A stretch of DNA of 46,332 nt from a virus. Position numbers and translations under genes: made by a program. This document shows positions 4,253 to 33,736 of this stretch, one piece after another; within the stretch, counting starts at the first letter, position 1, and every line of letters starts with the position of its first letter. The stretch is from positions 1 through 46,332 of the IMG/VR virus record IMGVR_UViG_3300031227_016760; one strand, written 5' to 3'. Under the pieces are notes generated by a model. That model made no database searches, was not told the DNA's origin, and worked only from the letters and a program-made list of their open reading frames with translations.

Positions 4253-4256
4253 CGTC

Positions 4257-5644: not shown

Positions 5645-5693
5645 GGCGAACCTCCCATGCGGAAAAATCTAGTACGGGAATAAAGCTAGGCGG

Positions 5694-5714
5694 GAGTGGT
5701 TCGGGTTTTCTGAA
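5694..5714 (-). promoter_or_regulatory. Late promoter/activator motif, copy A
   Basis: Read on the minus strand it contains CCCGAACCACTC preceded by TTCAGAAAA. The 11-bp core CCGAACCACTC is identical to copy B. It lies 49 nt upstream of the one-TM protein start (5644), the first gene of the lysis/glycan operon. A -10-like element downstream is not obvious (TAGCTT and TACTAG are candidates). The shared core, orientation and spacing with three other copies suggest a phage-specific late control site. The biochemical role is inference. Confidence 0.6.
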
Positions 5715-5723
5715 TCATCAATA

Positions 5724-6599
5724 CTAAATATCATCTTCATAGCGAGATGAGATCTTTTCACTTTTCTTTTCTTTTCTATAGAATCTTTTTGTTAATAAAC
5801 AATGTTCTTTCCAGTTAATTCCTTCCATTTCTTCATTGATAAGATTACGTTCCTTTTCAATTTTTCCTTTCATATGTTCCCATGTATCACCACCCAGGTT
5901 GTCGATTATTTTTTCCGAATATATTAATTCTTTACGTGCTTTTTTAAATTCTTTTCTGCGCCGATTGTTTATTGCTCTATTAAAATATATTTCTGCATTT
6001 TTCGCATAATTCTTGCTAAAATATTTCTTAGCGATTTTTAAGGCTTTTTTATATTCCTCTTCTGAACAATCATATTTGCCCATCTGGCTATAAGTTACCC
6101 CTACTGAAAGATGTATAGCAACTCTTTTTTGATTGGCCTCACGTCTGTCCTCGTTATCCTTATTTAAAATATTTATCACATCTTTACTTATCGTTAATGC
6201 TTTAATAAATTTTCCAAAATCAGAGTAAAAGTCACATGCATTAATAAGAAAATCCATACATAACTTAAAATCTTGCCGGATTCTACTTTTAACAAATGAA
6301 TACTCATTTTCTATTATTTCAGAAAACTTTTCAAGATTCCTTGTCTTTTTCAATATCATTATATAATTATTAATTGCTAAAAGGTAAGAACTTTGCTTAA
6401 CATCTGCGCTTGTAACTTCAGATAAATATTGAAATATTTTCTCAGATTCTAAATATTCTCCATTTTGAAACAGAGCACTTGCATAACCACATTGACACAC
6501 CAAAGTAACTTCATCTTTTTCGCCATATAATTTTTTACACCGCATATATAGATGATAATAAATTTTTTTATTGCCATCATACGAATCATCGAGTAACAT
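5724..6599 (-). CDS. AT-rich TPR-repeat protein, probable cargo gene
   Basis: 291 aa, made of tetratricopeptide-like helical pairs: ASALFQNGEYLESEKIFQYL (~40-60), a degenerate middle, then VGVTYSQMGKYDCSEEEYKKALKIAKKYF (~170-200) and AEIYFNRAINNRRRKEFKKARKEL (~205-230). TPRs usually bind proteins or peptides, and no catalytic domain is seen. Base composition is strikingly AT-rich, with AAA/AAT/ATA codons, unlike every neighbour, so it was probably acquired from a distant source. ATG 6599 is used because no better start lies upstream in frame; its SD (AGAAG) touches the start codon and is poor, so an N-terminal truncation is possible. It is divergent from the lipoprotein gene. Confidence 0.7.
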   Translation of the reverse strand: MLLDDSYDGNKKIYYHLYMRCKKLYGEKDEVTLVCQCGYASALFQNGEYLESEKIFQYLSEVTSADVKQSSYLLAINNYIMILKKTRNLEKFSEIIENEYSFVKSRIRQDFKLCMDFLINACDFYSDFGKFIKALTISKDVINILNKDNEDRREANQKRVAIHLSVGVTYSQMGKYDCSEEEYKKALKIAKKYFSKNYAKNAEIYFNRAINNRRRKEFKKARKELIYSEKIIDNLGGDTWEHMKGKIEKERNLINEEMEGINWKEHCLLTKRFYRKEKKSEKISSRYEDDI

Positions 6600-6641
6600 C
6601 TTCTGCGACTGATAATCAGTTCTTTTTGGAGGTAATTAATC

Positions 6642-7262
6642 ATGAAGATTGAACGCAATATTATGACCGTGATTCTGCTTGCTCTGCTCGCCCTCGCCGT
6701 TGGTTACGGCATCGCCTGTGACAGTTCCGACGATGACGATAACGACGCCGATGATGACGACACGTTCGAACCCAATGACGATGACGATGCGGATGACGAC
6801 GATGACGACGAAATCGATGACGATGACACAGACGATGACGATACTGGCGATGACGACACCATTACAAGCAGTTCGCCCTTCATTTATGACGGCTACTGGG
6901 ATCCGGAAGAAACCATACTTTTAAATATGAGTAGTGTTTATTGGGGCAGTTGGCTGGTCTTTTCCGTCTATGATCCGGATAACGACCTACTTGAAGACGA
7001 GTCTCGCTATTATCTGTACGATAACCTTTCCGGCGATCTGTACGACGAAGACAAGCTCTCTTTGAAATGCAATGGCTGGGGAGGCTTGATCGATGTGGAC
7101 GATTCCGATAACCCCGGGCAGGCAAAATGCCGGATCTATTTCGGAAAAGAAAACGAGCCGGAACCGGCGGGGTTGTATTGCTTCGATGTGAGAATCACGG
7201 ACAACGCTGGGAATCTATCGAACCCCATGACAAACGTTTGCGTCAATCATAATCCCGAATAA
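6642..7262 (+). CDS. Lipoprotein with long Asp-rich linker
   Basis: 206 aa. Residues 1-27 are a type II signal peptide: MKIER, then a hydrophobic stretch ending GIAC, with Cys27 as the lipidation site (lipobox somewhat degenerate, Gly at -3). Asp at +2 would favour inner-membrane retention under the enterobacterial rule. Residues ~28-75 are an almost pure Asp/Thr/Glu/Asn linker, likely calcium-binding or extended. Residues ~76-206 look like a beta-sandwich secreted domain (WDPEETILLNMSSVYWGSWLVFSVYDP; IDVDDSDNPGQAKC). SD GGAGGT precedes ATG. It is the only plus-strand gene in the late region, which is typical of a moron expressed from its own promoter. Function unknown; a role at the lysogen surface is possible. 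Confidence 0.8.
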   Translation: MKIERNIMTVILLALLALAVGYGIACDSSDDDDNDADDDDTFEPNDDDDADDDDDDEIDDDDTDDDDTGDDDTITSSSPFIYDGYWDPEETILLNMSSVYWGSWLVFSVYDPDNDLLEDESRYYLYDNLSGDLYDEDKLSLKCNGWGGLIDVDDSDNPGQAKCRIYFGKENEPEPAGLYCFDVRITDNAGNLSNPMTNVCVNHNPE

Positions 7263-7283
7263 ATCAACGATAAGCATTGATTT
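7261..7283. terminator. Possible bidirectional hairpin terminator
   Basis: A 7-bp inverted repeat (AAATCAA / TTGATTT, 9-nt loop) overlaps the lipoprotein stop and the last codons of the convergent tail fibre. The stem is AT-rich and weak and the following T run is short, so termination here is only a suggestion. Confidence 0.25.
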
Positions 7284-9393
7284 TCGGGCCGCACATTATG
7301 GCCATGTTGAAATACACATAGCCGCCCTTTGCGGAAGTCCAGTTGTATTTTGAATAGGTCAACAACAGGTGGCCATATTCTTTTTCAGCGAAGAGCCTCC
7401 AGCCATCGCCTGTCGCCGTTTCACTGCCAACATAGATCGTGAACGCTTGCGCTGAAGCCGGGCTCGTCGAAACGGCCTGCCAGGCCGTGGCGTCCCACTC
7501 GATGCCATCCTCCGAATACAACTGCCCGACAAAGGGCGTCATATTGCCGGAAGTAGCCAGCGAGCCGTTGAAAACGACGATACCGGAAAACGTCTGATAG
7601 TCGTCATTGCCGCCAGGAAGCAAGCTGTCACTATCGGCGTTTCTCTCGTCGCCGGAGCCGATGATCGTAAGCAACCGATCCCGATAATCGCGCAATGTGT
7701 CGAGTTTTCGATATTCGGAAATCGCGCCGGTCATCCCATTGGGCAAACCCGCGCCGGTGAGAAAGATTGTTGGGCTACTTGTCGAAGACGTTTGCACTGT
7801 ACGAAAATAGCAGGTGCCTCCGGAATCGCGAATGACAACCGTCATGCCTTCCGTGAACGGATTGTCAGTGGAAACGTGATTGATCGTCACGTTATCGGTG
7901 CCGGAATCGACCATCTGCCCGATAGCCATTTTTCCCTGCCAAACGAGGCTGAATCCGCCGCTTTCGTCTGCCGAAAGAGTTTCCGACAAATCATCGGCGG
8001 CGCGAAAATCATTGGCCCGATCCGGCAAGGCAATATTTTTCCGCGTATCCAGGTTTTGATCGATCGAGCCGGAAGTAAGATACAGCTTGCGGATACGCAC
8101 ACCAGTCGGATAATCCCCTTCGGCAGTGGAAAGGGATCCAGTCGGTGTAACGGAGATATATTTTTCCCCAGTATACGTGGAATCGATGGAAACACTGCTG
8201 ACATCGACCTGAATCACTCTTCCCTGATAGAGCACGTAACCGGCAGTGAAATAGACAACGCGAACAGTGGACGGGCCGACCACCAATGCATCCGAGTCAT
8301 AATCGCATCCGGTCAAAACTCCGTCCATATGAAGCTTTCTCAGGGCGTCGGCAACTTCATCTTCTGCATCTTCGATTGTCGACGCAAGCGTAGCGTCGAT
8401 TTCCGTCCGCGGGTAATACCGCGCATCATGATCGCTGCAACTTGCCCGTTGATCGGGGATGTACCACGGCAGACCAGGTGTGCCGATCGGCCCGGCCATG
8501 CCGGCCAAGTCGGGATGCTGGATGAAACCGTAGTTGTCCATGGAAACATCGAGCCGCGTGTCTAGGTCTTTTTGCTCACCACGGGCGGCTTCCACTTCGT
8601 CCATCACGTTGTCCAGCAGCCCCACCCTTTTCAGATTGCCGTCACCATCGAGGGCCACGGACAGGCGATCATTCAGATTAGAACAATTGCCCCGGGCGGC
8701 AATAATTTCGTCAATCCAAGCTTGAATCGAGACCTCGCCGTCAGGCGTCAACACGAACGGCGTTTTCCATTCAATGATTTCGTCACCATCGCTCAGCTCG
8801 CCGGATTCGACGAACTGCGCATGCAGACCGGCTACCAGATCTAAAACGGGGATGGCTTCGTGAACGACCATTACTTTGATAGCCGTTTGGTCGCCGTAGC
8901 GAACGTATTCCAGCCCGGCTTCGACGTAGCAGTTCCAGCGCCAGGCGCGAGGGAACGACCAATAGGAATCGTAGCTCGACGCACCCGCCGGCATCCGGGC
9001 AATGGCGATAGGAAATTGGACGTTCGACCAGTCGGGAATGTCGTCGTCGCCGGCCGTGCCGAGAACAATTTTGTAAACGGCCTGTTTGTCTGGGGCGGCA
9101 ACGTACCAGTATTCACCGACGATCAGATCGTACCGGGCGCTGGCCGTGGCGTTAGCGGTCAACGGTCGCCCGCTGGCGGCGCAGAAGTAGTCCGCACGGG
9201 CGGCATCTTCGGCAATCTGGTCGCCCTGGGCGCTGAACCATTCGCCGAAACCGATCGTCACGCTGGCGGCAACGGAGCCGGTGGCGCAGCGCATGCCGCT
9301 GATAATGCCGCTGGGCACGAAGCCCGCGAGTTGCAGATTGTATTCATGCGGATCAGGCGCGAGACCAAGGTGATTGCGAATTGTTTGGGTCAT
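7264..9393 (-). CDS. Tail fibre / tail collar-type protein
   Basis: About 709 aa, the last tail gene, after the baseplate proteins. The N-terminal half (MTQTIRNHLGLAPDPHEYNL, an FVPSGIISGMRC segment, DYFCAASGRPLTANATASARYDLIVGEY) looks like a baseplate-attachment region. Residues ~300-330 carry GPIGTPGLP, and then SDHDARYYPRTEIDATL, the (D)HD.RYY...EI motif common in P2/Mu-like fibre proteins. The C-terminal part is beta-rich, ending with GGYVYFNMAIMCGPKI. It should bind the host receptor. ATG 9393 is chosen over an in-frame upstream codon because GAAGGGGG precedes it and the upstream stop is 5 nt away. No reverse transcriptase or template repeat for tip diversification is seen. Confidence 0.8.
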   Translation of the reverse strand: MTQTIRNHLGLAPDPHEYNLQLAGFVPSGIISGMRCATGSVAASVTIGFGEWFSAQGDQIAEDAARADYFCAASGRPLTANATASARYDLIVGEYWYVAAPDKQAVYKIVLGTAGDDDIPDWSNVQFPIAIARMPAGASSYDSYWSFPRAWRWNCYVEAGLEYVRYGDQTAIKVMVVHEAIPVLDLVAGLHAQFVESGELSDGDEIIEWKTPFVLTPDGEVSIQAWIDEIIAARGNCSNLNDRLSVALDGDGNLKRVGLLDNVMDEVEAARGEQKDLDTRLDVSMDNYGFIQHPDLAGMAGPIGTPGLPWYIPDQRASCSDHDARYYPRTEIDATLASTIEDAEDEVADALRKLHMDGVLTGCDYDSDALVVGPSTVRVVYFTAGYVLYQGRVIQVDVSSVSIDSTYTGEKYISVTPTGSLSTAEGDYPTGVRIRKLYLTSGSIDQNLDTRKNIALPDRANDFRAADDLSETLSADESGGFSLVWQGKMAIGQMVDSGTDNVTINHVSTDNPFTEGMTVVIRDSGGTCYFRTVQTSSTSSPTIFLTGAGLPNGMTGAISEYRKLDTLRDYRDRLLTIIGSGDERNADSDSLLPGGNDDYQTFSGIVVFNGSLATSGNMTPFVGQLYSEDGIEWDATAWQAVSTSPASAQAFTIYVGSETATGDGWRLFAEKEYGHLLLTYSKYNWTSAKGGYVYFNMAIMCGPKINAYR

Positions 9394-9398
9394 CGGGA

Positions 9399-11078
9399 TC
9401 AGCCCCCTTCTTTGTCGGCAAAGCAAGTAATCCAATACGGGTTACCACTTCGCCAATCGAATTCATCCCAGTCGATTTCGTCGCTGGGAAAGTGATAGCA
9501 AATTCTTCTGCCAGCACGTTGGCGTCGCAGAATTTTTTGATGGAATTCCTGGAAGCTTCGGGAAACGTCGCCATCGCTGGGCGTGAGGATCACATGGATT
9601 TCGGCCCAGCGCAGTCGGTCCACGCCAAGGTCGTCCAGAATTATACCGTTGGTTTCCATTGTGGTGTAAAAATCGGTACGCCAGCCCTCGACAATCGTCA
9701 CGTCGAAGCCCAGGTAAACGCACAACGTTTTCAACCCCAAAACCGTGCCGTCCAGTTGTTTTGACTGAAACGTGTCACCGAGAAGGAATCGCAACCCACT
9801 CTCGGTCATCGTGTATATTTCCGGGATCAGCAAATCGCGGAGTGGCGCCATATCGGCAAGCGCCCCTTCATCGGCGTTGGTGATCGAAAAATTGTCGCGC
9901 GCTTCAACCAGAAAAAGCATGGCGAGGTCCAGTTCGTGGCCGAATGCCTGAATGATGTGCCACTGCGGTAGCTGCGACCAATCTTCGCTTTCCATCGGGT
10001 TGTCGCGGTCCAAAAGCAGGTCGCGGCCAAGAGCCGGATCGGTGTAGCCGTCCGGGCCTACCGGCGTGGTTGTGCGGATCGGAGCGGAAGGATTTTCGTA
10101 CAGGCCGGTCACGCTGTCGATACCGAATTGATAAACCAAATTCCATTCCAGCAGTTCGTCGCCCGATTGGACGGAGAGAGCGATGTTGCTTTGGAATTGG
10201 CCGGTGGATGTTTCGGTGATCGTCACCGTCGATTTTCCGGGCACCAGCCGTGGGGAGAGGCCGTCGCCGGCGAGGATGGATTTGATCTGCTTGGCCATCC
10301 GCGCTTCTTCGGCAGGAGTGAAAGGCTTGCCGAAAAACGCACTCAGACCGCCCTCGTCCAGCGCATCGGCGGCGTCTTGCAGCAGGGAAATCAGGCCGTT
10401 GGGCGTCATCGCCAGATCACCATCGGCGGCGATCTGCAGCGGGTACTTTTTCATCCAGAGCGGCATGATCGACCACAGGTAATCGCCCATGATTGACGAG
10501 TATTCCACTTCCAGATCGGCGTACTCGGCCCAGGTTTCCGCTTCGATTACATTTAGCATCCACGGCGAAAAATAGCATGGGCCTTCGGGGAAGTCGTCGA
10601 AGCGCTGAATCAAAGTCTTCTCGTCGCCGTCGACGAGGTAGAAAAACACCGTCTGGCCGTATTTTTCCACTCGGAAGGTGATCGGCAGTTCCGGCAACTC
10701 GTAGGGTGTGCCGATCATCGTGTCATCCTGGAAATCGTAAATCCGCAACGCGACCTCGCTGCCGTTCTGGAAAACGCCGATGAACCGGGCGTTGGTGAAA
10801 TTGATGCGCCGATCAGCCACCATGATTCCGGCGAATACTTCGCCTTCGACCAGAAATTTCGCTTCCGGGAATTGATAGTCGGTCAGCGTGATTTCAAGTT
10901 TAAAATTGGACAGCGGCTGGTTCAGCAACGCCCACTGGTAGCGGCCCTGGGTTCCGGCGGCGCACGTGATCCGCAACTTGCCGTCGATCACGTCGATTTC
11001 GTCGCCTTCGTAAAACCGCCCGAAAGTCGAGAACAGGCTTTTCCAGGAATCGGTGCTGAAATCTTCAACCAGAATCAT
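9399..11078 (-). CDS. Baseplate/tail protein with gpI-like C-terminal region
   Basis: About 559 aa. The N-terminal ~200 residues (MILVEDFSTDSWKSLFSTFGRFYEG; FFYLVDGDEKTLIQRF) resemble a concanavalin-like beta-sandwich. The C-terminal ~250 residues (FGHELDLAMLFLVEARDNF, then GALADMAPLRDLLIPEIYT) resemble tail protein I of P2, the wedge component that carries the fibre. It lies between baseplate J and the tail fibre, the usual place for gpI. ATG 11078 overlaps the J stop (ATGA). The extra N-terminal module is not part of canonical gpI, so this may be a fusion of an adhesin-like domain with a wedge protein. Confidence 0.6.
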   Translation of the reverse strand: MILVEDFSTDSWKSLFSTFGRFYEGDEIDVIDGKLRITCAAGTQGRYQWALLNQPLSNFKLEITLTDYQFPEAKFLVEGEVFAGIMVADRRINFTNARFIGVFQNGSEVALRIYDFQDDTMIGTPYELPELPITFRVEKYGQTVFFYLVDGDEKTLIQRFDDFPEGPCYFSPWMLNVIEAETWAEYADLEVEYSSIMGDYLWSIMPLWMKKYPLQIAADGDLAMTPNGLISLLQDAADALDEGGLSAFFGKPFTPAEEARMAKQIKSILAGDGLSPRLVPGKSTVTITETSTGQFQSNIALSVQSGDELLEWNLVYQFGIDSVTGLYENPSAPIRTTTPVGPDGYTDPALGRDLLLDRDNPMESEDWSQLPQWHIIQAFGHELDLAMLFLVEARDNFSITNADEGALADMAPLRDLLIPEIYTMTESGLRFLLGDTFQSKQLDGTVLGLKTLCVYLGFDVTIVEGWRTDFYTTMETNGIILDDLGVDRLRWAEIHVILTPSDGDVSRSFQEFHQKILRRQRAGRRICYHFPSDEIDWDEFDWRSGNPYWITCFADKEGG

Positions 11079-12238
11079 GCCGATACCTCGACGAAAGTGA
11101 TTGTTACCGTGCCCAAAGTCGGCAACTGGTCGGCGTTGACCGACACATTGGCCGTGGGCGTGGTGAACGTCACATCGTAGACGCTCTCCGGGCGGGTGAC
11201 GCACTCGATGAGTTGGGCATAAACCACTTGCTTGCCCACACCGAGGGGCCGCAGCCATTCGTAGAGTTCATCGCCCGAAGGATTGAAATAGGCGGCAAGG
11301 ATCGCCCGGATTTCGTCGTCCAGATCGTCCGCATTCGTGCCGGAAAGGTATTGCACGGTGAAGGTAAGATCGATTTCCTTTTCGTTCGGCCCCTGGATCC
11401 ACACGTCATCACCGGCAGGGCGCTTTCCGTCTTCGTAATCTTCGGCGGCGGTGCCGATGATGTCTTCGCGTAAGTCGGTCAGCAGTTCGGCAGAGGGCGC
11501 TCCGACCGTCGAAATCACGTAGCAGGTGATCGTCCCTTCGCCGCGGGGACCGTTGGCGTCGATCCAGGCTTGGGCCACGCGGACATCGGACAGCAGCCAA
11601 TACAAATAGGCGGCGGTGTTGCTGCCGCGAGTGACGGCATGCCAGGCCAGCAGGTAGCGGCGGCGCAGGCGGGAATCGCTTTCTTCGTCCGCACCTTCGG
11701 AAACGAAACGCTCGTCGGCATCGAGCGTTGTATCGTCGATTTCGTCGATACCCGAAAGTAGTGTTCCTTGTTGGTCGACCGTGCCTGCAGGCAAGTTGTA
11801 CGCAGCGCCGGCGTTTTCGGCTTCGATGGTGACTTCCAGTTCCGTTTCGCCATCGGCCATCGTGTAATCCTGGATAGTCAAAAAACGGTAGCGGTCGCCG
11901 TTGCGATCTTGCCGGGATTGGATGACCGACCCGGCGGCGATGAAGATGTCACCGGAAGAAGAATTGCGTTTCAGAATCACCGCGCGCCGGGCTTTAACGG
12001 CGGCCAGGCGGGAAACATTGCGCTCGGCGCAAATGGCTTCCAGCGAAGCGCCGGTTGATGTCATTCCGTTGCCGCACAGCCCGATTTCCACACCGAACGA
12101 GTAGATTCCTGCAACGGTGTCGCCTTGCTTTTCGATGATCGAATCGGCCACAGAGCCATCGTTGAAATTGGTAACGCCTCCGGCTATGAAACCGGCGGCG
12201 AGATCTGATTTGATTGCTGCGGTGGTTTTTGCGGGCAT
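11075..12238 (-). CDS. Baseplate J-like wedge protein
   Basis: About 387 aa. Shows the gpJ hallmarks: AERNVSRLAAVKARRAVILKR, then a beta-rich core (VIQSRQDRNGDRYRFLTIQDY, AYNLPAGTVDQQGTLLSGID), then EESDSRLRRRYLLAWHAVTRGSNTAAY and a GPRGEGTITCYVI segment. gpJ forms the baseplate wedge together with gpW and gpI. ATG 12238 follows the previous stop as TGACATG with GGAG upstream; the longer in-frame extension upstream is Pro-rich and overlaps the previous gene, so it is rejected. No gp25/W homologue was recognised next to it. Confidence 0.9.
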   Translation of the reverse strand: MPAKTTAAIKSDLAAGFIAGGVTNFNDGSVADSIIEKQGDTVAGIYSFGVEIGLCGNGMTSTGASLEAICAERNVSRLAAVKARRAVILKRNSSSGDIFIAAGSVIQSRQDRNGDRYRFLTIQDYTMADGETELEVTIEAENAGAAYNLPAGTVDQQGTLLSGIDEIDDTTLDADERFVSEGADEESDSRLRRRYLLAWHAVTRGSNTAAYLYWLLSDVRVAQAWIDANGPRGEGTITCYVISTVGAPSAELLTDLREDIIGTAAEDYEDGKRPAGDDVWIQGPNEKEIDLTFTVQYLSGTNADDLDDEIRAILAAYFNPSGDELYEWLRPLGVGKQVVYAQLIECVTRPESVYDVTFTTPTANVSVNADQLPTLGTVTITFVEVSA

Positions 12239-12239
12239 G

Positions 12240-13502
12240 TCACACTCCAAACAGTTCGGCCACGGGGCCAAGATCGGCGGTGGCGGCAAGTAGACAAATG
12301 CCGACAATGTAGCTGGCGTCGGGCAACGGCGGTCTTCCGGCATCGTCGAGGGCTTCGAACAGGCCGGAAATGCCCTCCGACGAATCGACCCTCACGGCGT
12401 ACACGCCCGTCAGGGCCAAAATCTGCTCGATCAGTTCGATAGCATTTTCGACTTGTTCGGCCAGATCGCGTAACTGGTCCGCTTTTTCAGACAGCGCCTC
12501 GGCCAGTTCTTGCAGCAAGCCCAGAATGCCGGGGGCCATTTCGAGCAAGCCGATCACCCGCTTGACCAACTTTTCCACTTCGCGCATGGGGGGAATGTCG
12601 CTCACTTTGCGGCTATGCCAATCGGGGGCCGTGCGGTTACCCCCACTGGTCTGCGGATCGGTACCGGCCAGAATCACCGGCGTTCCGGCCGGCCAGCTTC
12701 GTTTGACGCCATCGTACAATGTGAACTTCTTTTCCTGCCGGTCGATATTTCTGGGGGTGGCGAATTCCAATGTCGCCACCTCCAATCCCCCGATAATCAC
12801 AAACCGATCGGCGGTGAATCCATCCGCGTTATTGACTGTGATTTCCTTATCGCCGGCGGCGGCGTTTTTCGTTAGTTCGGTGAAGGCCAGGCGATCCAGC
12901 AGGTCGGAGAATTCCTTAATGCCGAACAGACGGCCCAGTGCGGCCAACATTGCCGGAAGGGCGTCGAGGCTGGGCGTACCGGCCACGAACAGCAGGGCCG
13001 ACACTTCGGCGTCGTCGGAAAAGATCGGGCGGCGTTCATCGCCCTGGTCGTCAAAGCTCATTTCCCAACGGCGCACCCATCCCGTCCAGCCGGTGGGCCG
13101 TGTGGCGACCAGCGGCAAGTCGGGCGTGTTGTAGGTTTCGCCCCGCGCTTCGGCGGCGGATTTTTTGGTCGCTTCCTCGGCATCGATGTTCATCGCCCGG
13201 GTCATTTCGGCGTGATCGTAGGAACGTAATTTATAAAACGGAAAGCCTGTCGCATCCCAAAACATGTACAGGCCGGTGTTCATCGTGTCGGACAGCAGAT
13301 CTTTCAATTGCTGGATAAACGCTTCAACCATCGCTCGTTCCGGGTCGGTCAGATCCACCAGCAAATCGGCCAGCGTATCGATGACGGAGGCGGCGGTTTC
13401 GGCGGCGGTGGCGACGGCATCGGCCACGTCACCGGTGCCTTCGAGTACCGATTTTGTCGCGTCCGGGAATAACGTTTCCGCGTTGAATGCTGCCCAGGTC
13501 AT
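12240..13502 (-). CDS. Baseplate-module protein of unknown fold
   Basis: 420 aa between the V-like spike gene and baseplate J. The N-terminal ~60 residues are an Ala/Thr/Asp helix (ADAVATAAETAASVIDTLADLL). The middle holds a beta domain (GDKEITVNNADGFTADRFVIIGGLEVATLEFA) like the N-terminal domains of adhesion or baseplate proteins. Residues ~300-370 are a long coiled coil (EVEKLVKRVIGLLEMAPGIL; ALSEKADQLRDLAEQVENAI). It may replace wedge or wedge-connecting functions, since no W is visible. The start overlaps the 59-aa gene (ATGA). I do not recognise a family. Confidence 0.7.
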   Translation of the reverse strand: MTWAAFNAETLFPDATKSVLEGTGDVADAVATAAETAASVIDTLADLLVDLTDPERAMVEAFIQQLKDLLSDTMNTGLYMFWDATGFPFYKLRSYDHAEMTRAMNIDAEEATKKSAAEARGETYNTPDLPLVATRPTGWTGWVRRWEMSFDDQGDERRPIFSDDAEVSALLFVAGTPSLDALPAMLAALGRLFGIKEFSDLLDRLAFTELTKNAAAGDKEITVNNADGFTADRFVIIGGLEVATLEFATPRNIDRQEKKFTLYDGVKRSWPAGTPVILAGTDPQTSGGNRTAPDWHSRKVSDIPPMREVEKLVKRVIGLLEMAPGILGLLQELAEALSEKADQLRDLAEQVENAIELIEQILALTGVYAVRVDSSEGISGLFEALDDAGRPPLPDASYIVGICLLAATADLGPVAELFGV

Positions 13503-13678
13503 CGTTTTTTATCCTCGCCCGGTTTCGCCTCTTCCTGTGGAATGCCGGTCAATACTTCGGCCAACTTTTTCAAGCGGTACTCGGTGTCTCCCCGCGTCGT
13601 CCGCGCCTTTTTGTGGAGCACTTCGGCCACTTTCCGGTAGGGCCGCGTCAATTTGGTTGGGTTTGGTTTCTTCCACAT
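13499..13678 (-). CDS. Small basic baseplate-operon protein (59 aa)
   Basis: Begins MWKKPNPTKLTRPYRKVAEV and ends EEAKPGEDKKR. Very basic and helical, Cys-free, no recognised family. It sits 2 nt after the spike gene and shares ATGA with the next gene, so it is translated as part of the tail operon. No clear homologue comes to mind; it may be a chaperone or a small wedge component. Confidence 0.65.
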   Translation of the reverse strand: MWKKPNPTKLTRPYRKVAEVLHKKARTTRGDTEYRLKKLAEVLTGIPQEEAKPGEDKKR

Positions 13679-13680
13679 CG

Positions 13681-18575: not shown

Positions 18576-18585
18576 GATGGTTTTC

Positions 18586-19268: not shown

Positions 19269-19286
19269 CGGTCTGCTCCTTGTCGG

Positions 19287-19769: not shown

Positions 19770-19774
19770 GGCGC

Positions 19775-21241: not shown

Positions 21242-21253
21242 GATCTATTCCTC

Positions 21254-22642: not shown

Positions 22643-23028
22643 GACGGCTCCCCATCTTCCACGTTCAACTGCAAACGAGTGAACATTTCCGCCCCGGCCA
22701 AACCAAACGGCTGCAAATGAGTAATGCGATAATTCCGGTTGTCAATAACGACACGATCCATTTTTTGCAACGTGGTCGTCAGATCACCGGCGGTATCGGC
22801 GACACAATCGCAATCGGGTTCAAGCACGTCGCTGTCGGGCTGCGCTTTGAAATCCACCGGTAGCGTGGCGGCTGGCGAGAACGAATCCTCGGTCGGACCG
22901 TCAAAGCTATCGTCCCCGGTCGTTTGCGGCCGATAGACGTAAGCCGTTTTGCGGTCGGCGCCGATGACCCCCGCGCAATCGGCGGCAACCTGGGCCTGTT
23001 CGGTTTCGGTGAGATCGAATTCGCTCAT
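22639..23028 (-). CDS. Head-closure (stopper) protein
   Basis: 129 aa. The beta-rich C-terminal half (DFKAQPDSDVLEPDCDC, then VVIDNRNYRITHLQPFGLAGAEMFTRLQL) fits SPP1 gp16 / HK97 gp7 stoppers, which also sit between the adaptor and gp10. Overlaps the gp10-like start. Assignment by order and the GAxxFTRLQLxV-type end. Confidence 0.6.
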   Translation of the reverse strand: MSEFDLTETEQAQVAADCAGVIGADRKTAYVYRPQTTGDDSFDGPTEDSFSPAATLPVDFKAQPDSDVLEPDCDCVADTAGDLTTTLQKMDRVVIDNRNYRITHLQPFGLAGAEMFTRLQLNVEDGEPS

Positions 23029-23447
23029 TACAGTTGGCTTTCCTGTTCGTACTGGACACCACCGGCTATTTCAGGATCATCATCGAGGCCGGCAAGGTCG
23101 CGGTACATAGACCAAAGATCGTCATGAATTTCTTTTTTGGTCAGCATCTGGCGGGAGCGGTCGACCTGCTTGTCGCCAGATTTCCAGCTTGTGACCATTT
23201 TCGAAGCCGACACCAAGTCCAGATGGGCGAGAAACCATGCGGCGAGAATCAGAAAGAGTTCCTGGTGTAGGGACGATGGTTCCGGCGTAATCTGCGTATC
23301 GTCGCATTCGTAGGCTGTTTCCAGGTCTTTGTTGACCTGCGTCACCGCTCGCTCGAATGCCCGATTTGCGGTGGCCTCGGCGATTTCCGTCAAGCCGGTG
23401 TCAATTTTCAGTTTCTCAATGAGTTCGGACAGCAACATCGCTGTCAC
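23028..23447 (-). CDS. Head-tail adaptor (gp6/gp15-like)
   Basis: 139 aa and mostly helical: LLSELIEKLKIDTGLTEIAEAT, then HQELFLILAAWFLAHLDL, then KSGDKQVDRSRQMLTKKEIHDD. This four-helix arrangement after the capsid gene fits the adaptor ring that docks on portal. The S.KSGD..VD motif is common in such proteins. One base overlaps the stopper gene. Confidence 0.65.
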   Translation of the reverse strand: MTAMLLSELIEKLKIDTGLTEIAEATANRAFERAVTQVNKDLETAYECDDTQITPEPSSLHQELFLILAAWFLAHLDLVSASKMVTSWKSGDKQVDRSRQMLTKKEIHDDLWSMYRDLAGLDDDPEIAGGVQYEQESQL

Positions 23448-23456
23448 CCTCCACCG

Positions 23457-23813
23457 CTACTTCGCGGCATCGAATCTTTTTGCATGCATCCGGCAATAAT
23501 CGCTGTTTTCCAACACCGAGTTGGCACACCGTTTGCCCGTGCTGGCTGCGGTCGCCTTGCACTGTTTCGGTGCATTCGGGAATACGGGTTTCAACTCTTC
23601 GGGCACCGAGATATTTTCCACCGACAGGATTTCGGCGGTGGATTTGGCGACCAGTTGCAAGCGGCCGCTTTGTAATATTTCCTGAAGATTCCGGCAGGGC
23701 GGTGTTTCGCGCACCTGCCCTGCCGGGATCACCAAAGAGGGCAAATTGAGCTCAGTACGTTTGACTATCCAGTCGGATCTGCCCGGATTTTTGACTTTCA
23801 GGATTTCACTCAT
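23457..23813 (-). CDS. Capsid-region protein with C-terminal CRMH zinc knuckle
   Basis: 118 aa. The N-terminal ~75 residues are beta-rich (DWIVKRTELNLPSLVIPAGQ). The C-terminus has C-x8-GKRC-x10-CRMH (QCKATAASTGKRCANSV ... YCRMHAKR), a four-ligand knuckle. The same GKRC-N-...-CRMH pattern lies at the N-terminus of this phage's TerS. Located between capsid and adaptor genes, so a head accessory role is likely. The zinc binding is inferred from motif spacing. Confidence 0.65.
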   Translation of the reverse strand: MSEILKVKNPGRSDWIVKRTELNLPSLVIPAGQVRETPPCRNLQEILQSGRLQLVAKSTAEILSVENISVPEELKPVFPNAPKQCKATAASTGKRCANSVLENSDYCRMHAKRFDAAK

Positions 23814-23827
23814 TGCCTTCCTCTTCT

Positions 23828-24700
23828 CTAGGTGATCTTGATGATCGCGTACCGCGACGGATGGGTAACCTTCGCCCGCGTGGTGAACCAGATTTGAATT
23901 GCAATTTCGAGGGACTGAACAAGCTCCACCTCCTTTGGTTCCATGGGAAATTCAGGGACGATTTTGCCGGCCGGTTCGTCAAGACGAAGAAGAACACGGT
24001 TGGTGGGAATGTCGATGTTGAACAGGAAGCCGGCGCCGCCGTATTCAAGATTCTTGAAACCGCGTATCTGCAGTTCATCTTTGATGCCATTGCCGAGGGT
24101 CGTATCGCCGCGAACATCGGCGAAGGTGGAGCCGCGACCGAGCCACAGCGAAGGATTGCCGTAATCCTCGACTTTTTTCAGCGCCTGATTCATCGCCGCG
24201 GCATCCAGGCTGCCGCTTACTTCGACAATGTTGGTGGCGGCTGCTTCCATCAATTGGTACACCCGCAGGTTCATCTTGCGAGCCATCTCGCCCTTGGCGA
24301 TATCCGTCTGCTCATCCATGCTTTCCACGTCGCCACGTTTCAGATCGAGAATGTTGACGCGGGGCATGGACTGCAGCAACCAGGTCGGCAGGGTTTCCAG
24401 GTCCGGGATGTCCTTAGTGGATTTAATCGTACCGTCCTTGTTGATCCACCAGGCCTCATGTTCCGGCTCTTTGCCCAGCTTGACTGCGCCCGTTTTCGGC
24501 TGCTCCTGTTGGAGCATGAATTCAGCAATCGAGGCAGCCTTCACATCCGCTTCGATGAAGCCGTAAACCTGAGAAGCGATGGCTTTCATGGCCTCCGTTG
24601 ATCCGCCGCCTTCGTCGTATTTATTCTGAACGACGCTACTCAAAGCGCGGAGCGCTTCGTGCCGCGTCACCATTTCGCTTCCGTTAGTAGACAGAGACAT
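23828..24700 (-). CDS. Major capsid protein (HK97-like)
   Basis: 290 aa. Features fit an HK97-type shell protein: N-terminal helix (HEALRALSSVVQNKYDEGGG), a middle long helix (EMARKMNLRVYQLMEAAATNI), a DAAAMNQALKKVED segment, the FNIDIPTNRVLLRLDEPAGKI strand region, and the C-terminal IQIWFTTRAKVTHPSRYAIIKI beta hairpin. Placed after the decoration and scaffold genes; SD GGAAGGGAG precedes ATG. No extra N-terminal delta domain is visible, consistent with the separate scaffold-type protein. Confidence 0.85.
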   Translation of the reverse strand: MSLSTNGSEMVTRHEALRALSSVVQNKYDEGGGSTEAMKAIASQVYGFIEADVKAASIAEFMLQQEQPKTGAVKLGKEPEHEAWWINKDGTIKSTKDIPDLETLPTWLLQSMPRVNILDLKRGDVESMDEQTDIAKGEMARKMNLRVYQLMEAAATNIVEVSGSLDAAAMNQALKKVEDYGNPSLWLGRGSTFADVRGDTTLGNGIKDELQIRGFKNLEYGGAGFLFNIDIPTNRVLLRLDEPAGKIVPEFPMEPKEVELVQSLEIAIQIWFTTRAKVTHPSRYAIIKIT

Positions 24701-24714
24701 TTTTCGCTCCCTTC

Positions 24715-25089
24715 CTAGTAGAGCTTGACTTCGAAGCCGCTGTCGGCGTCACCGTTGAGAATGAGGCCACGCTTGACACCGCTGGCGACGTACTTCGTCG
24801 GGAAGCCGTCGGCATCGGACGTGATTTCATCGCCGGGGGTGGGGCTACCATCAATTTCCGAGATCCAGATGTCGTTTCCGCCGCCAAAGGCGATGGCCGC
24901 TTTGGCTCCCTTTACCCCGCTGTAGAGCAATACACCGGCAGCTACGCCGGTCGGGTCGGTCTGCGGGGCAAATTCATCGTCGCCGGTCACCTTCATGAAC
25001 TGGCGAGGGGTCGCATTCGCGCTCAGATCGCCAGAACCGTGAACATAGGTGGTAGCCGGAGAGCGAACTTCTACTTCTTTCGTTGCCAT
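24715..25089 (-). CDS. Capsid decoration protein (DUF2190-like)
   Basis: 124 aa and beta-rich, with ATPRQFMKVTGDDEFAPQTDPTGVAAGVLLYSG and GDEITSDADGFPTKYVASG. This resembles DUF2190/gpD-type decoration proteins that sit beside the capsid gene and stabilise the full head. SD AGGAAGGAG is strong, expected for a high-copy structural protein. Confidence 0.75.
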   Translation of the reverse strand: MATKEVEVRSPATTYVHGSGDLSANATPRQFMKVTGDDEFAPQTDPTGVAAGVLLYSGVKGAKAAIAFGGGNDIWISEIDGSPTPGDEITSDADGFPTKYVASGVKRGLILNGDADSGFEVKLY

Positions 25090-25104
25090 AATTCCGTCTC
25101 CTTC

Positions 25105-25650
25105 CTAAATCGTATTGGACTGGCGCTTGTACGCATCCAGCTTCTGTTCGGCTTCACTTTTCGCGCCGCTCTTACTGTCCGGAACATCGTCCAGTCGGGT
25201 AGCGACGGCCTTTTGCTTTGTGGCTTGTACGCTGGCCTCAGCCTTCGGCGGGGTTTCTGCTTCGGCGGCGTCATCGGGAAGATCGTCATTGTCGGCGCCT
25301 GCTTCGGCATCTTCCGCTTCCGCTTTGACCGGGATCGTCAAAAGCATTTCTTCCATGTCGGTCAGCGCGTCGTCGGTCTTCTTCATCAGCTTTTCGATTT
25401 CCGCTTTTTCCGCCTTGTCGTCGGCAAACTCGCGGCCACGCGCTTTCCAATCCGCAAGGATTTTCTTGACACGGGCTTCGCGCTTTTCGGCTTTGAAGCT
25501 TTCGTTTTCTTCGGTCAACGCCTTGTTCTGCGCAGTCAATTCCTTGATCTGCGTTCCCAGGTCCGTCACCTTGGCGGTAAGCTCTTCGACTTCGGTTTTC
25601 TTTGCCGCTTCCGCCTGGAGCTTTTCATCGGTCGCTTTGTTTTTGTCCAT
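25105..25650 (-). CDS. Nested scaffold protein (internal start)
   Basis: An in-frame ATG at 25650 (MDKNKATDEKLQAEAAKK) follows AAGGAGG with six intervening bases, the best SD in this part of the operon, although it lies inside a coding region. The product would be 181 aa, mainly the coiled coil and the charged tail, which is what a prohead scaffold needs. This parallels lambda C/Nu3, where the scaffold is made from an internal start in a head gene. Seen: SD, frame and coiled coil. Inferred: use of the start. Confidence 0.6.
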   Translation of the reverse strand: MDKNKATDEKLQAEAAKKTEVEELTAKVTDLGTQIKELTAQNKALTEENESFKAEKREARVKKILADWKARGREFADDKAEKAEIEKLMKKTDDALTDMEEMLLTIPVKAEAEDAEAGADNDDLPDDAAEAETPPKAEASVQATKQKAVATRLDDVPDSKSGAKSEAEQKLDAYKRQSNTI

Positions 25651-26301
25651 CTCATCCTCCTTGGGATCTTTGGGGTCTCCTGTCAGGTGGGCGGCTACGG
25701 CCATGATCTCCGCTTCCGGGTCCGCGCCCTTTGGTTCGAAAACGCTCATGCCGGTGAAGGTCACATGGCGCATAATCACTTGCGCCTGCGAGGTACCCAT
25801 CGCCATGCCTTTCACTGATTTAAGGTGAGAGCAGATGCCGCGACTGTCGGTGAATCGTTGGCCGCATTTGCTGCATTCGCCCTCGGTGTAGTCCACTTCG
25901 TAGCTGACATGCCTGGCGCGTTTCGTTTCGATTAGTCGCCAGGCTTTCTCATCGTAGGGTCCGCCTTTATCCACTTCGGCGACCACTTCCACGCGAGCTT
26001 TCCCATCGTTTTCGACAAAGGCGTAATCGATGATCGTGCCGATGTTTTCCAAAGCCGAAGTCGGGTGCAAATCAGCGCCGGTTTTGATCTCCCCCATTGG
26101 CATCCGAACACTGCCGCCCGCGGATCGCTGGACCGCTTGGCGGGCTTCATCGGCCGTCAGCGTGATAAAGTTGGCGGTCGTGCCAACATGGGTCATCTTG
26201 GCGAGGAAACGTCGACCATCGAGCAACTTGATCAAGTCGTCCTGGCTGCAGGCGGCTTGCGCTCGGAGCGTTTGCATCCTCTTCACCGCGTCATTGCTCA
26301 T
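25105..26301 (-). CDS. Head morphogenesis protein with zinc finger and C-terminal scaffold
   Basis: 398 aa. Residues ~30-215 are a folded domain (RFLAKMTHVGTTANFITLTADEAR, then VSYEVDYTEGECSKCGQRF, then GICSHLKSVKGMAMG) with CxxC...CxH ligands. This arrangement resembles phage prohead-protease-associated proteins that display a C/H knuckle. Residues ~235-330 are a long coiled coil (EVEELTAKVTDLGTQIKELT), followed by an acidic and then basic tail. That is a scaffold-type layout. ATG 26301 overlaps the protease stop. A perfect SD inside the gene predicts a shorter scaffold (next entry). The function of the N-terminal domain is not known to me. Confidence 0.65.
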   Translation of the reverse strand: MSNDAVKRMQTLRAQAACSQDDLIKLLDGRRFLAKMTHVGTTANFITLTADEARQAVQRSAGGSVRMPMGEIKTGADLHPTSALENIGTIIDYAFVENDGKARVEVVAEVDKGGPYDEKAWRLIETKRARHVSYEVDYTEGECSKCGQRFTDSRGICSHLKSVKGMAMGTSQAQVIMRHVTFTGMSVFEPKGADPEAEIMAVAAHLTGDPKDPKEDEMDKNKATDEKLQAEAAKKTEVEELTAKVTDLGTQIKELTAQNKALTEENESFKAEKREARVKKILADWKARGREFADDKAEKAEIEKLMKKTDDALTDMEEMLLTIPVKAEAEDAEAGADNDDLPDDAAEAETPPKAEASVQATKQKAVATRLDDVPDSKSGAKSEAEQKLDAYKRQSNTI

Positions 26302-27391
26302 TGCCTGCCTCCGGGGTGTTTTCGGGTTTCTGGGATTCGACGGAAGCGCCGGGCAGGATGGCCGAGAAGTCGGTCACGACGTCATCGACGACGCCGAATG
26401 CTTTGGCTTCTTCGGGCGAAAAATAATGCTCGCGTTTGCCGTCATCGCCGCGTAGCACTCCCATCATTTCGTCGAGGGTGGTGCCGCAGTTTTCGGCAAG
26501 GATTGTGAGGTAAATCTTATTGAGTCGCTTTGTTTCTTCGACCTCATTTTCAAGGTCGGACATATTGCCCAAGGCAATGCTGCTAATCTCGTGAACCATT
26601 ACCGTGCTGTATGGCATGGCGTAGCGGTGGCCCTTGGCTCCGCAGGAAAGCAGGATCGAACCGCACGACATGGCAACGCCAATGGCGCAGGTGTGGATTT
26701 CCAGCTTGCTGGTTTTCATGGCGGCAACCATTGCCAGCAGGTCATGCACGAGGCCGCCATAGCTGTCGACAATCACCATCACCGGAGCGCTGGGGTCTTC
26801 CCGCTCGAACCGATTGATGGTTTCGACGAACTCCCGTGTAGGCGGGAACTCAAAATCGCGCACCCAAATCGTCCGTGGCATTTCTTGCGGTTCCGGTCGC
26901 CCCTGCTGCACAATGACCGTTTCCGGAAAATCGTCATCGCCTTTTTGTGGCGAAGCCTGAGCCTTGATCTGCTTGGGCGACGCCGGGGCTTGCTTGCCGA
27001 AAGCATCCCAGTATGCCGCCAGCTTGCGATGTGCCGCTTCCGCCGCATCGAGCGACAGACCGGCTTTGCTGTCGCGGATGGCCTGAGTTGCGGCTTTCAC
27101 CGCTGGCCACACGGCGACGAGTTCACCATCCTCCGGCAGCTTGAACGGCAACCGGTAGGCAGCCTTTGCCTTCGGCCAGCGCCCGTTTTCCTTTTCGGCG
27201 AGGTAGTTCTCATCGACGAAGGCGCAGGCATCGGCCAGGCCAGCCCAACCGAACTGAGCGATGATGGAATCGACGGTATCGGCCCAATCGAAATTCCAGG
27301 AAGTATCCGCCGGAGCCAGGGCGCCGGCTTCGATTTTGGCCGCAAGGGCTTCGAGCTTCCGCTGATCTTCGATTGTGGCGTTGTATCTCAC
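26291..27391 (-). CDS. ClpP-like prohead serine protease
   Basis: 366 aa. Residues ~1-125 are a helical domain (WNFDWADTVDSIIAQFGWAGL; RWPKAKAAYRLPFKLPEDGEL). Residues ~165-340 are an S14/ClpP-like protease: VIVDSYGG, then AIGVAMSCGSILLSCGAKGHR with the Ser nucleophile in AMSCGS, then STVMVHEISS with the catalytic His. The Asp is downstream. It probably cleaves scaffold and possibly portal or capsid during maturation. The start is GTG 27391 with GGGAGGT eight bases away. It heads the operon behind late motif copy B. Confidence 0.85.
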   Translation of the reverse strand: MRYNATIEDQRKLEALAAKIEAGALAPADTSWNFDWADTVDSIIAQFGWAGLADACAFVDENYLAEKENGRWPKAKAAYRLPFKLPEDGELVAVWPAVKAATQAIRDSKAGLSLDAAEAAHRKLAAYWDAFGKQAPASPKQIKAQASPQKGDDDFPETVIVQQGRPEPQEMPRTIWVRDFEFPPTREFVETINRFEREDPSAPVMVIVDSYGGLVHDLLAMVAAMKTSKLEIHTCAIGVAMSCGSILLSCGAKGHRYAMPYSTVMVHEISSIALGNMSDLENEVEETKRLNKIYLTILAENCGTTLDEMMGVLRGDDGKREHYFSPEEAKAFGVVDDVVTDFSAILPGASVESQKPENTPEAGNEQ

Positions 27392-27445
27392 GGTGGTGAC
27401 CTCCCGGTTATGTGGGAAGGGTACGCGTGAAAATTTATTCCTTTG

Positions 27446-27478
27446 GAGTGGTTCGGAAATTCAGAAAAAAATACCCTT
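27446..27478 (-). promoter_or_regulatory. Late promoter/activator motif, copy B
   Basis: On the minus strand: AAGGGTATTTTTTT followed by CTGAATTTCCGAACCACTC. It is 54 nt upstream of the protease GTG. The first 21 bases are identical to copy C, and the CCGAACCACTC core is identical to copy A. A TAAATT downstream (27430s) might serve as -10. Around it the 193-nt gap is AT-rich and contains no ORF. Confidence 0.65.
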
Positions 27479-27584
27479 GTTTATCGCGGGGTTAAGTTCG
27501 CGTTATTCAAGTGGTTTTTTAGGAAAGAAAATTTTTGTTTTTAAAAACGCTAACGCCGTCGAGCACATGGCATATCCCACATTT

Positions 27585-28610
27585 TTACGATAATCCATAA
27601 TCTTCCGGCGTCTTGGTGACTTCCGACGCCTCGCCGACAATCGTGCAAGCGCAATTGGGATGCTGAGGAATCGCCGGCAACTTTTCCAAGGTGAATATCT
27701 GCTCGTTGAGTTCCATGCAGGCGGGGCACGAATTAGGGCCTTCGGCCAGCCAACGAACCTTAAAAATGCCGACTTGCCCGTAAAACGCCACCCGGCCCTG
27801 ATTATGCGCTCGCATGTTTTCGGTGTGGACGATCAGTTGCAGCCGATTTGCCGCCGAAGGGAAAATGCGCCCTCCGGCATGGCGGAACTTCTCGGGATCG
27901 GTGATCACCTGGCCCAGCTTGCGCGTGACTTCGTAAAGCGGATCGCCATTGAGCAAAGCCATAGTGAGTTGCGACTTGATTTTGTTTTTTATGTCGTCGG
28001 CGACGACCCCGGCCAGTTCGATGCGGTAGGCCGAGAGGAACGAGAGAGCGGCGTTATCGACCAGCGCGAAGGCGGCATCGGCAACCGTTTCCGCTTGCTT
28101 CGCAGTCAGGCTGCCCCATCCGCCCGGTGCATTCTGCGCATGCAGATCCTTGACCGCATGGAGAACGCCGCTTCGCGCCCCCTCGCCTGCCTGCACGGCC
28201 GGGAGTAAGGTCTGGTTCGCCAGTGCGTTATCAATCGATAGATCGATCTGGACCTTGAGACTTTTGAGATTCGCCAACCGCTGCGCCTTCGTGATATTGC
28301 GCGGATCATGATCGAAATCCATAACCACCTGGCGAACGCTCTTTTCCGCTGTGCGCAACTCCCGGAGCATGGGTTTGAGTTGGGCGTTATCCAGTTTGTG
28401 AAGATCGCGGCGGGCGTTTTTAGTTGCGACCGCAATGCGCTCGGACAGTTCTGAGGCATGGCCGAAAAGCGGTATTACTTTAGCAAGCGGCGGGTGATAG
28501 CACCCCTGCTCGATCAATTCGAATGCTGAATCGTAGAAAGCTCCGACCGCCTTGGGCAATCTGGCAAACCGTGCTGGCTTCCACTTTTTGATTGGAATCA
28601 CGGCGGGCAT
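27585..28610 (-). CDS. Mu F-like minor head protein (SPP1 gp7 family)
   Basis: 341 aa. The C-terminal third is diagnostic: RLQLIVHTENMRAHNQGRVAFYGQ, then FKVRWLAEGPNSCPACMELNEQIF, then IPQHPNCACTIV, the Mu gpF pattern with paired CxxC/HPNCAC Cys-His ligands. The N-terminal two-thirds are helical. These proteins join portal in the procapsid and may enter the cell with DNA. It starts 6 nt after the portal stop. Confidence 0.85.
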   Translation of the reverse strand: MPAVIPIKKWKPARFARLPKAVGAFYDSAFELIEQGCYHPPLAKVIPLFGHASELSERIAVATKNARRDLHKLDNAQLKPMLRELRTAEKSVRQVVMDFDHDPRNITKAQRLANLKSLKVQIDLSIDNALANQTLLPAVQAGEGARSGVLHAVKDLHAQNAPGGWGSLTAKQAETVADAAFALVDNAALSFLSAYRIELAGVVADDIKNKIKSQLTMALLNGDPLYEVTRKLGQVITDPEKFRHAGGRIFPSAANRLQLIVHTENMRAHNQGRVAFYGQVGIFKVRWLAEGPNSCPACMELNEQIFTLEKLPAIPQHPNCACTIVGEASEVTKTPEDYGLS

Positions 28611-28616
28611 GAGAGG

Positions 28617-30098
28617 CTACTTCCCGCATCGAGTGGTTTTCTTCTTTTTCTTCGATGCTTTCGCTTGCAGCCTGGATTCGGCTTTTTTGTAGATTTTCTG
28701 CGCTTCCTGCATCGAGGCTGCCGCCTGGATCTGCTCCACTTCGGTATCAGTCATGCCGAGCAATACCTGGGCGACATCGGCGCCGACAACCTGCGCTCCG
28801 ACCAGACCGATGACATCCTGCGCCGAGAAGAACCGCTTGATGCGGATCGGCTCGTCGTCGATTGCCGCGTCTTCGTCTTCCGGATCCAGACCGCGCCGGC
28901 GCTGCAATGTTTTCCGGCTGATAAGGCCGCGATCATACAATTCCCGATCTTCACGGACGGACCACTCTTCTTCGTCCAGATCCAAGCCAGTGAAAATGTA
29001 TTTGAGTTCATGTTCGGAATCCAGGCCGATGGACTGCTTGACCTGTTCATCAAAAAGCCAATCCAGGAAAATGCGCACATCGATGCACAACTCGCGGATC
29101 TGATAGCGCGTGGCCTTGAGAACCACCCGGCTGTTGCCGTAACCGCTACCCTCGCCGGTGACAAAAAACGGAATGAACCCCATGGCAATGGCGATCTCGC
29201 CGATAAGGGACGCGGCCTTGGAAGAGGTGTCGAGCACCACTCCATCGGTGCCGTAGGTTTTGACATCCCAGTGCCACGGGACAACCAATCCTTGATTTAA
29301 TTCCTGATTTTCAAGCAGCTCTTTCGCCGCGCTCAATTCTTTCTTGCCCGGATTAATAAGTTTATTTCCGAATAACCCGCCCAGGCGAATGAGGCGAAGC
29401 GGATTAGTGAATCGCTTGGCAATGGCACGGTCGGCGCGGCGGTAGTGTTCCAGGCTGGGCACCTTGTCGAAAGTGCGGCAAATCAGGCTATTGCCACGTT
29501 CGTCCCAGTCGTCGGCGTCGAACTGCATGAATAAAATATTAGCCAGTTGTTCCGGCGAGGATATCACGTTGGTTTCAGTGGAAGTACGTTTGCCGTCTTT
29601 AATTGCGTACTGCACCAACTTGGCCAGCTCGCCATCATCCCAGGTGGGCACCACGGAAAGCGGATTAATCAACTGCAATCGCTTGATCTCGTCATTATCC
29701 CAGACTTTATGAGCAATCGCTTCACCGCGGACAAGCTCGTTCGTGATAAACCGGCCGATGCGTTTGTCGAGGTGAATCCGTCGAGTGAATCTGTCAAGCG
29801 CTTCCTGGTCTTCCTTGTTGGACGCCAGAACTTGTACCCCATCACCAACCACAAAGGAGCGTAACAGCCAGATACATTTGCCTATGACATCGATGCGGCG
29901 AAAGTAGTCATTGGCCATTGCGACACGATCTTTCCACTCCTTCGGATTCGTGGTTTGCGTGTCATCGAATTTGGAGGCGGCAAAATTGGCAATGGATCCA
30001 ATGGCAACGTTTCTTAGAAGTTCAACACCATCCTGCAGGTAAACCATACCCTTGCCGAGTAACCCGCTGTCTTGAGGTGGTGTGTTTTTCTTTGCCAT
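28617..30098 (-). CDS. Portal protein
   Basis: 493 aa, about the usual length for SPP1/Mu-type portals. It shows RIDVIGKCIWLLRSFVVGDGVQV near the N-terminus, LQLINPLSVVPTWDD, SLEHYRRADRAIAKRFTNPLRLI, the GIAIAMGFIPFFVTGEGSGYGNSRVVLKATRYQI stem region, and a helical basic C-terminus (KAESRLQAKASKKKKK). It is the packaging vertex for TerL and DNA. SD is weak (GAG). It is first after late motif copy C and divergent from TerL. Confidence 0.85.
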   Translation of the reverse strand: MAKKNTPPQDSGLLGKGMVYLQDGVELLRNVAIGSIANFAASKFDDTQTTNPKEWKDRVAMANDYFRRIDVIGKCIWLLRSFVVGDGVQVLASNKEDQEALDRFTRRIHLDKRIGRFITNELVRGEAIAHKVWDNDEIKRLQLINPLSVVPTWDDGELAKLVQYAIKDGKRTSTETNVISSPEQLANILFMQFDADDWDERGNSLICRTFDKVPSLEHYRRADRAIAKRFTNPLRLIRLGGLFGNKLINPGKKELSAAKELLENQELNQGLVVPWHWDVKTYGTDGVVLDTSSKAASLIGEIAIAMGFIPFFVTGEGSGYGNSRVVLKATRYQIRELCIDVRIFLDWLFDEQVKQSIGLDSEHELKYIFTGLDLDEEEWSVREDRELYDRGLISRKTLQRRRGLDPEDEDAAIDDEPIRIKRFFSAQDVIGLVGAQVVGADVAQVLLGMTDTEVEQIQAAASMQEAQKIYKKAESRLQAKASKKKKKTTRCGK

Positions 30099-30134
30099 TG
30101 GCGCTCAGCTTATTTCCAAGCGGCGCTCGGAGGG

Positions 30135-30167
30135 GAGTGGTCGGGGAATTCAGAAAAAAATACCCTT
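30135..30167 (-). promoter_or_regulatory. Late promoter/activator motif, copy C (portal side)
   Basis: Same layout as copy B: AAGGGTATTTTTTT then CTGAATT, then a diverged core CCCCGACCACTC. It ends 36 nt before the portal ATG. The 33-bp window matches copy B except for a short stretch in the middle of the core. Copy C' lies beside it on the other strand. Confidence 0.65.
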
Positions 30168-30171
30168 CAAC

Positions 30172-30190
30172 TCTGAATATCCGAACCACT
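30172..30190 (+). promoter_or_regulatory. Late promoter/activator motif, copy C' (TerL side)
   Basis: TCTGAATATCCGAACCACT on the plus strand, 35 nt before the TerL ATG. With copy C it forms an inverted pair 4 nt apart, a bidirectional promoter or activator site for the divergent portal operon and TerL. The core CCGAACCACT is identical to copies A and B. Confidence 0.6.
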
Positions 30191-30225
30191 GTGTAACCAA
30201 TGCACATTTGCAGCACATTCGGTGC

Positions 30226-33732: not shown

Positions 33733-33736
33733 ATCG

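Follow-up and report, generated by a model that had tools for sequence, protein, structure and literature searches.

We found that a 46,332-bp IMG/VR virus record (hereafter the window, meaning the whole stretch of DNA analysed) carries four copies of a directional element, each standing shortly before late genes, and that this element is probably the binding site of a phage-encoded activator of late promoters with a sigma70-like -10 and no -35. Our best reading is that these late promoters form an activator-dependent family in an uncultured clade of contractile-tailed temperate phages. An earlier note on this DNA had proposed a phage-specific late control system from four motif copies. All four were confirmed on the strands it gave, each oriented towards its gene and 33-53 nt from the start codon. 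The copies, together with a weak fifth one, are as follows.

5693..5714, minus strand: copy A, TTCAGAAAACCCGAACCACTCC, upstream of a one-TM/DUF6765/glycosyltransferase/hexapeptide-transferase operon
27445..27466, minus strand: copy B, TTCTGAATTTCCGAACCACTCC, upstream of the head maturation protease
30134..30155, minus strand: copy C, TTCTGAATTCCCCGACCACTCC, upstream of the portal gene
30171..30192, plus strand: copy D, CTCTGAATATCCGAACCACTGT, upstream of the terminase large subunit (TerL) and back to back with copy C
31967..31988, minus strand: weak fifth copy, TTCTGAAAAATAGGACCAGTTT, 14.4 bits, behind the 3' end of the integrase gene

The core 10-mer, CCGAACCACT, is present as the earlier note described, but the recognisable element is longer, at 20 bp, and includes TTCWGAA, the sole part of the asymmetric consensus that is palindromic by itself. 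This consensus, TTCWGAAWWNSCRNACCAMT, was derived from 16 sites and holds 29 bits over 22 columns. The exact 10-mer occurred three times (copies A, B and D), copy C carrying CCCGACCACT in its place with 2 mismatches, and when 2 mismatches were allowed the 10-mer showed no enrichment in the window (39 found, 42 expected). The longer pattern GAAWWYCCGAACCACTC, with 3 mismatches allowed, matched copies A-D only (0.93 expected). A matrix trained on three related phages alone (G001, G003 and G004, described below), with the window left out, ranked copies B, A, C and D first to fourth over ~92,600 window positions (29.2, 28.8, 27.7 and 19.9 bits); the next site, at 17.4 bits, falls within a gene. 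In 100 dinucleotide shuffles scored with this matrix, the mean maximum was 12.9 bits and the highest 22.2 bits. Copy D alone lies inside the shuffled range, and it has ortholog sites at TerL in G001 and G004. A chance origin of the four copies was ruled out by the GAAWWYCCGAACCACTC match count and the hold-out ranking. The fifth copy, with a -10-like TATTTT at offset 19, not 21, is probably decayed.

The genes behind the four copies include packaging and head genes.

1400..4252, minus strand: glycosyltransferase family 2 protein in the copy A gene string (Pfam PF00535, 1.2e-14), with a G001 ortholog
5267..5644, minus strand: one-TM protein (putative TM) of 125 aa, first gene behind copy A; its G001 ortholog, 42.6% identical, lies behind the same motif
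26291..27391, minus strand: head maturation protease (ClpP-type) with a GTG start (Pfam CLP_protease, 1.8e-31; PHROG 94)
27585..28610, minus strand: Mu F-like minor head protein (Pfam PF04233, PHROG 115), between portal and copy B
28617..30098, minus strand: portal protein (PHROG 2739), with orthologs in G001, G003 and G004
30226..31815, plus strand: TerL (PHROG 2), start ATG at 30226, its N-terminus aligning with that of G001

Sites precede packaging, head and baseplate genes and the conserved one-TM/DUF6765/glycosyltransferase/hexapeptide-transferase string, and we found no strong site in the early arms. Copy B sits in a 193-nt gap amid co-directional head genes, in the order portal, MuF-like gene, copy B, protease; the claim that no copy lies in the middle of an operon is therefore only partly right, and the head cluster is predicted to have an internal late promoter. 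Behind copy A, window positions 1-5270 (minus strand) encode a glycosyltransferase 2, two hexapeptide transferases and DUF6765, and in G001 a heptosyltransferase also stands behind an element copy; these genes are possibly surface-modification cargo under late control.

We then compared the placement of the element among relatives. G001 (67.6 kb) was found via TerL, which is 74% identical to that of the window, and G003 (42 kb) via the portal (36% identity). When 2.9 million contigs were scanned for the motif followed by 23 N and TANNNT, G004 (22.8 kb) was recovered, as was a 10.5-kb record bearing the same sites, beside single AT-rich matches (L025-L029, L031-L039, L042 and L043) that were treated as chance, as were L067-L069. 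G004 was retrieved by the motif pattern alone; its head genes were afterwards shown to be homologous to those of the window, and its sites precede the genes for portal, protease and TerL, proteins that share 32-37% identity with their window counterparts. When a stricter 22-bp pattern lacking the -10 was used, 7 contigs matched, 4 of them of this clade, the other 3 having a single match each, no -10 at 21 and no homology. The portal encoded by a 4.4-kb record (3300025736_003400) is identical to that of the window. The sites outside the window, located by matrix or pattern scan, were these.

G001 12614 and G004 21707: TerL sites, orthologous to copy D
G001 14884, G003 16687 and G004 19621: portal sites, orthologous to copy C
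G001 19386, G003 13954 and G004 16950: protease sites, orthologous to copy B
G001 41927: one-TM gene site, orthologous to copy A, with the same predicted leader as copy A
G001 18361, 35013 (baseplate) and 49918 (upstream of the heptosyltransferase gene): further sites

The element thus precedes both portal and protease in all four phages (the window, G001, G003 and G004), TerL in three (the window, G001 and G004) and the one-TM/glycosyltransferase operon in two (the window and G001). Absence of the motif before the same genes in relatives, which the earlier note had named as counting against its proposal, was not what we observed: the motif is present in G001, G003 and G004. It is absent before the G003 TerL gene and in the more distant TerL relatives G006 and G008, where a single co-directional string holds both TerL and portal. 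Portal and sheath scans of genome contigs revealed no prophage; among isolated phages the portal had no match and TerL had two only, at 28% and 25% identity.

The spacing between the element and a -10 was the second conserved feature. Among 15 sites that had been chosen without regard to it, TANNNT, a sigma70-like -10, occurred exactly 21 nt after the 22-mer in 9, whereas 20,000 shuffles never gave more than 5 at any offset. Orthologous promoter spacers share just 2-11 of 21 positions, such that the spacing was kept as the sequence diverged. Over the four genomes, 13 motif matches had a -10 at 20-22 and none had one at a control spacing. The predicted -10s of the window, each 21 nt after its copy, are listed here.

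5666..5671, minus strand: TAGATT, after copy A
27418..27423, minus strand: TACCCT, after copy B
30107..30112, minus strand: TAAGCT, after copy C
30214..30219, plus strand: CACATT, after copy D; weak, with 2/3 key bases

TerL sites have imperfect -10s (CACATT in the window, ATTTCT in G001), and the spacing departs from 21 nt at G001 49918 and at the G003 portal site. No ordinary or consensus sigma70 promoter was found at the element sites, which rules out an ordinary sigma70 promoter reading. If the -10 is taken as -12 to -7, the element extends from about -55 to about -36; by this placement it stands in for the -35, unlike in an ordinary promoter. Just upstream of the element the sequence is AT-rich (0.88 and 0.94 at the last two positions). 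Phage-specific late control is supported by the motif before the same genes in relatives, the fixed 21-nt spacing, the lack of a sigma70 promoter and the finding that sites are confined to late genes.

Transcript starts were predicted 7 nt after the -10. Gene starts came from homology and gene calls, and the leader pattern that follows is for this reason supporting, not independent, evidence. The predicted leader is 0 nt for TerL of the window, G001 and G004, where in the window the A of the TerL ATG is the predicted +1 behind copy D, and 2 nt for the portals of the window (copy C, without a usable Shine-Dalgarno) and G001. A usable Shine-Dalgarno is missing at all five of these 0-2 nt leaders and present at all ten leaders of 15-23 nt, among them those of the copy A gene (15 nt, GGAGGT) and the copy B protease gene (20 nt, GGAGGT). 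The predicted start sites would explain these translation signals, with TerL and two portals, which lack a ribosome-binding site, predicted to be leaderless.

We propose that during the lytic cycle TTCWGAA...ACCAMT would be bound by an activator, on the face next to where the -35 is missing, and that the bound activator would bring in host RNA polymerase holoenzyme, perhaps with assistance from the AT-rich sequence immediately upstream. Joint activation would follow for TerL, portal/MuF, protease/head-tail and the glycosyltransferase operon. TerL and portal transcripts are predicted to start at, or no more than 2 nt from, the start codon, and the remaining late genes would have leaders of 15-23 nt with a Shine-Dalgarno. 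A late-promoter code for an uncultured phage clade can in this way be defined from sequence alone, giving the genes expected to fire together and their expected transcript starts; the code predicts leaderless TerL and portal, and the glycosyltransferase operon in the regulon would tie presumed surface-modification genes to the late programme.

One site shared upstream of several late operons and kept between relatives is what we found here, as in the general class of activator-dependent phage late promoters. Mu Pm has a -10, no -35 and a 16-bp activator element centred at -43.5 (PMC4390567). Like Pm and its activator Mor, the promoters described here have a -10 without a -35, an element abutting the -35 region in its place and an AT-rich stretch just upstream, but the element is 20 bp long and centred at about -45.5, its sequence differs, and it is asymmetric, whereas the Mor site consists of two 5-bp inverted repeats. 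The P2 activator Ogr has a CX2CX22CX4C zinc finger and a consensus site TGT-N12-ACA (PMC3931495). As among P2 late promoters, several dispersed promoters share one activator site, although the consensus differs and the TGT-N12-ACA site is lacking; in geometry the promoters resemble Mu Mor more than P2 Ogr. RinA, Ltr and ArpU of Gram-positive phages likewise give late regulation of a promoter upstream of terminase and head genes, and Ltr requires upstream repeats (PMC13123087). That arrangement is one promoter with tandem repeats, in contrast to the many dispersed single-site promoters seen here. Searches of the four records found no Mor/C family protein (PF08765; E<=1, the window being probably a fragment), no Ogr_Delta (PF04606) and no ArpU-type regulator (TIGR01637), and the absence of these families from all four records ruled them out as the activator. 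With all three of the tested known late-activator families missing, a new family is likely, with a short list of candidates.

36446..38005, minus strand: ParB-like protein (ParB_N, 1.8e-9; stop-to-stop frame) with a C-terminal four-cysteine/HTH module, candidate activator
33052..33756, minus strand: HGG/zinc-ribbon protein (phrog_3678, near NCBIfam HGGxSTG)

Both proteins, the ParB-like/Zn-HTH and the HGG, are common to the window, G001 and G003. Of the HTH, ParB-like and zinc-ribbon proteins suggested in the earlier note, the ParB-like protein carries the best candidate module. Its CX2CX22C, fourth Cys and HTH are kept in all three phages, the module being fused to the ParB-like protein in the window and G003 and free-standing in G001. 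The G001 Zn-HTH protein (L018 1452-2699) has no recognisable ParB_N domain in any frame. Compared with Ogr the likeness is partial: there is CX2CX22C and a fourth Cys, but none at X4, and the candidate is larger and HTH-bearing. Predicted structures for the Zn-HTH module and for the HGG protein were of too low quality to be used in searches (mean pLDDT about 53), the HTH helices excepted; the HTH region of the Zn-HTH module reached a pLDDT of about 80-87 within an otherwise poor model. The four-cysteine HTH protein is the leading candidate for the activator. The HGG/zinc-ribbon protein, whose G001 homolog stands behind a weak motif copy at 7731, is possibly a second candidate or a small terminase. 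Tentatively, and with more doubt than confidence, the four-cysteine (CX2CX22C...C) HTH module could itself define the new activator family, ParB-fused in two phages and free in a third, with the 20-bp element at -55 to -36 as its binding site and leaderless TerL and portal mRNAs as a further outcome.

A different possibility is direct reading of the 20-bp element, with no separate activator, by either a phage RNA polymerase or an alternative sigma factor. The element is strong, non-degenerate and fixed in its spacing; sigma70 region 4 is present in a 213-aa protein of G003 (9.6e-17), and G001 and G003 have a small region-4 protein in common. Yet about 23 nt separate the end of the element from the -10, more than a region-4/-35 contact would allow (normally 16-18), the -10 is itself sigma70-like, and neither a region-4 protein nor a single-subunit polymerase was found in the window, which is without counterpart of about 11 kb of G001. 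We consider this explanation unlikely. Marginally less likely again is a host-encoded activator whose site the phage has borrowed, making the regulon not phage-specific: the lack of the tested late-activator families in the four records would fit, but multi-copy matches among the 2.9 million viral contigs came from this clade only.

Lysogeny-repressor operators (stoperator-like), silencing late genes in the prophage, would also be asymmetric, oriented and upstream of genes, and these phages are temperate (integrase; Peptidase_S24/HTH_3 families in the G001 early set). We regard this as very improbable, as the immunity, integrase and early replication arms are free of sites in both the window and G001, and the lack of a -35 beside a site spanning -55 to -36 suits activation better than occlusion. 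That the element acts at the RNA level or serves another late-gene feature, such as packaging or recombination, unconnected to promoter activation, is hardly credible: TerL and portal are indeed flanked by sites, but spacing to the -10 is constant, orientation follows the downstream gene, and sites also occur at a distance from the packaging genes, ahead of protease and glycosyltransferase genes. A phage-encoded activator remains the preferred reading.

The window itself is probably a fragment: with ends at 1 and 46332, it is without counterpart of G001 47.8-59 kb, which holds another integrase and other regulators. At 31812-31934 (minus strand), behind the weak fifth copy and between the TerL and integrase 3' ends, lies a 40-codon truncated ORF that by eye resembles the start of a ParB/Srx domain. 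Since the portal promoter lies directly behind the integrase in G001, G003 and G004, this region may be a rearrangement scar. A penicillin-binding-protein transpeptidase fragment (34361-35527, plus strand; PF00905, 3.3e-15) overlaps an excisionase-like HTH_17 ORF (35054-35539, minus strand), and appears to be host-derived DNA or an assembly chimera. Lastly, a head-cluster gene at 25105-26301 (minus strand) matches a PHROG named DNA methyltransferase (1.5e-33) and has no Pfam match; this label may be wrong, and the gene is conserved in G003, G004 and G008.
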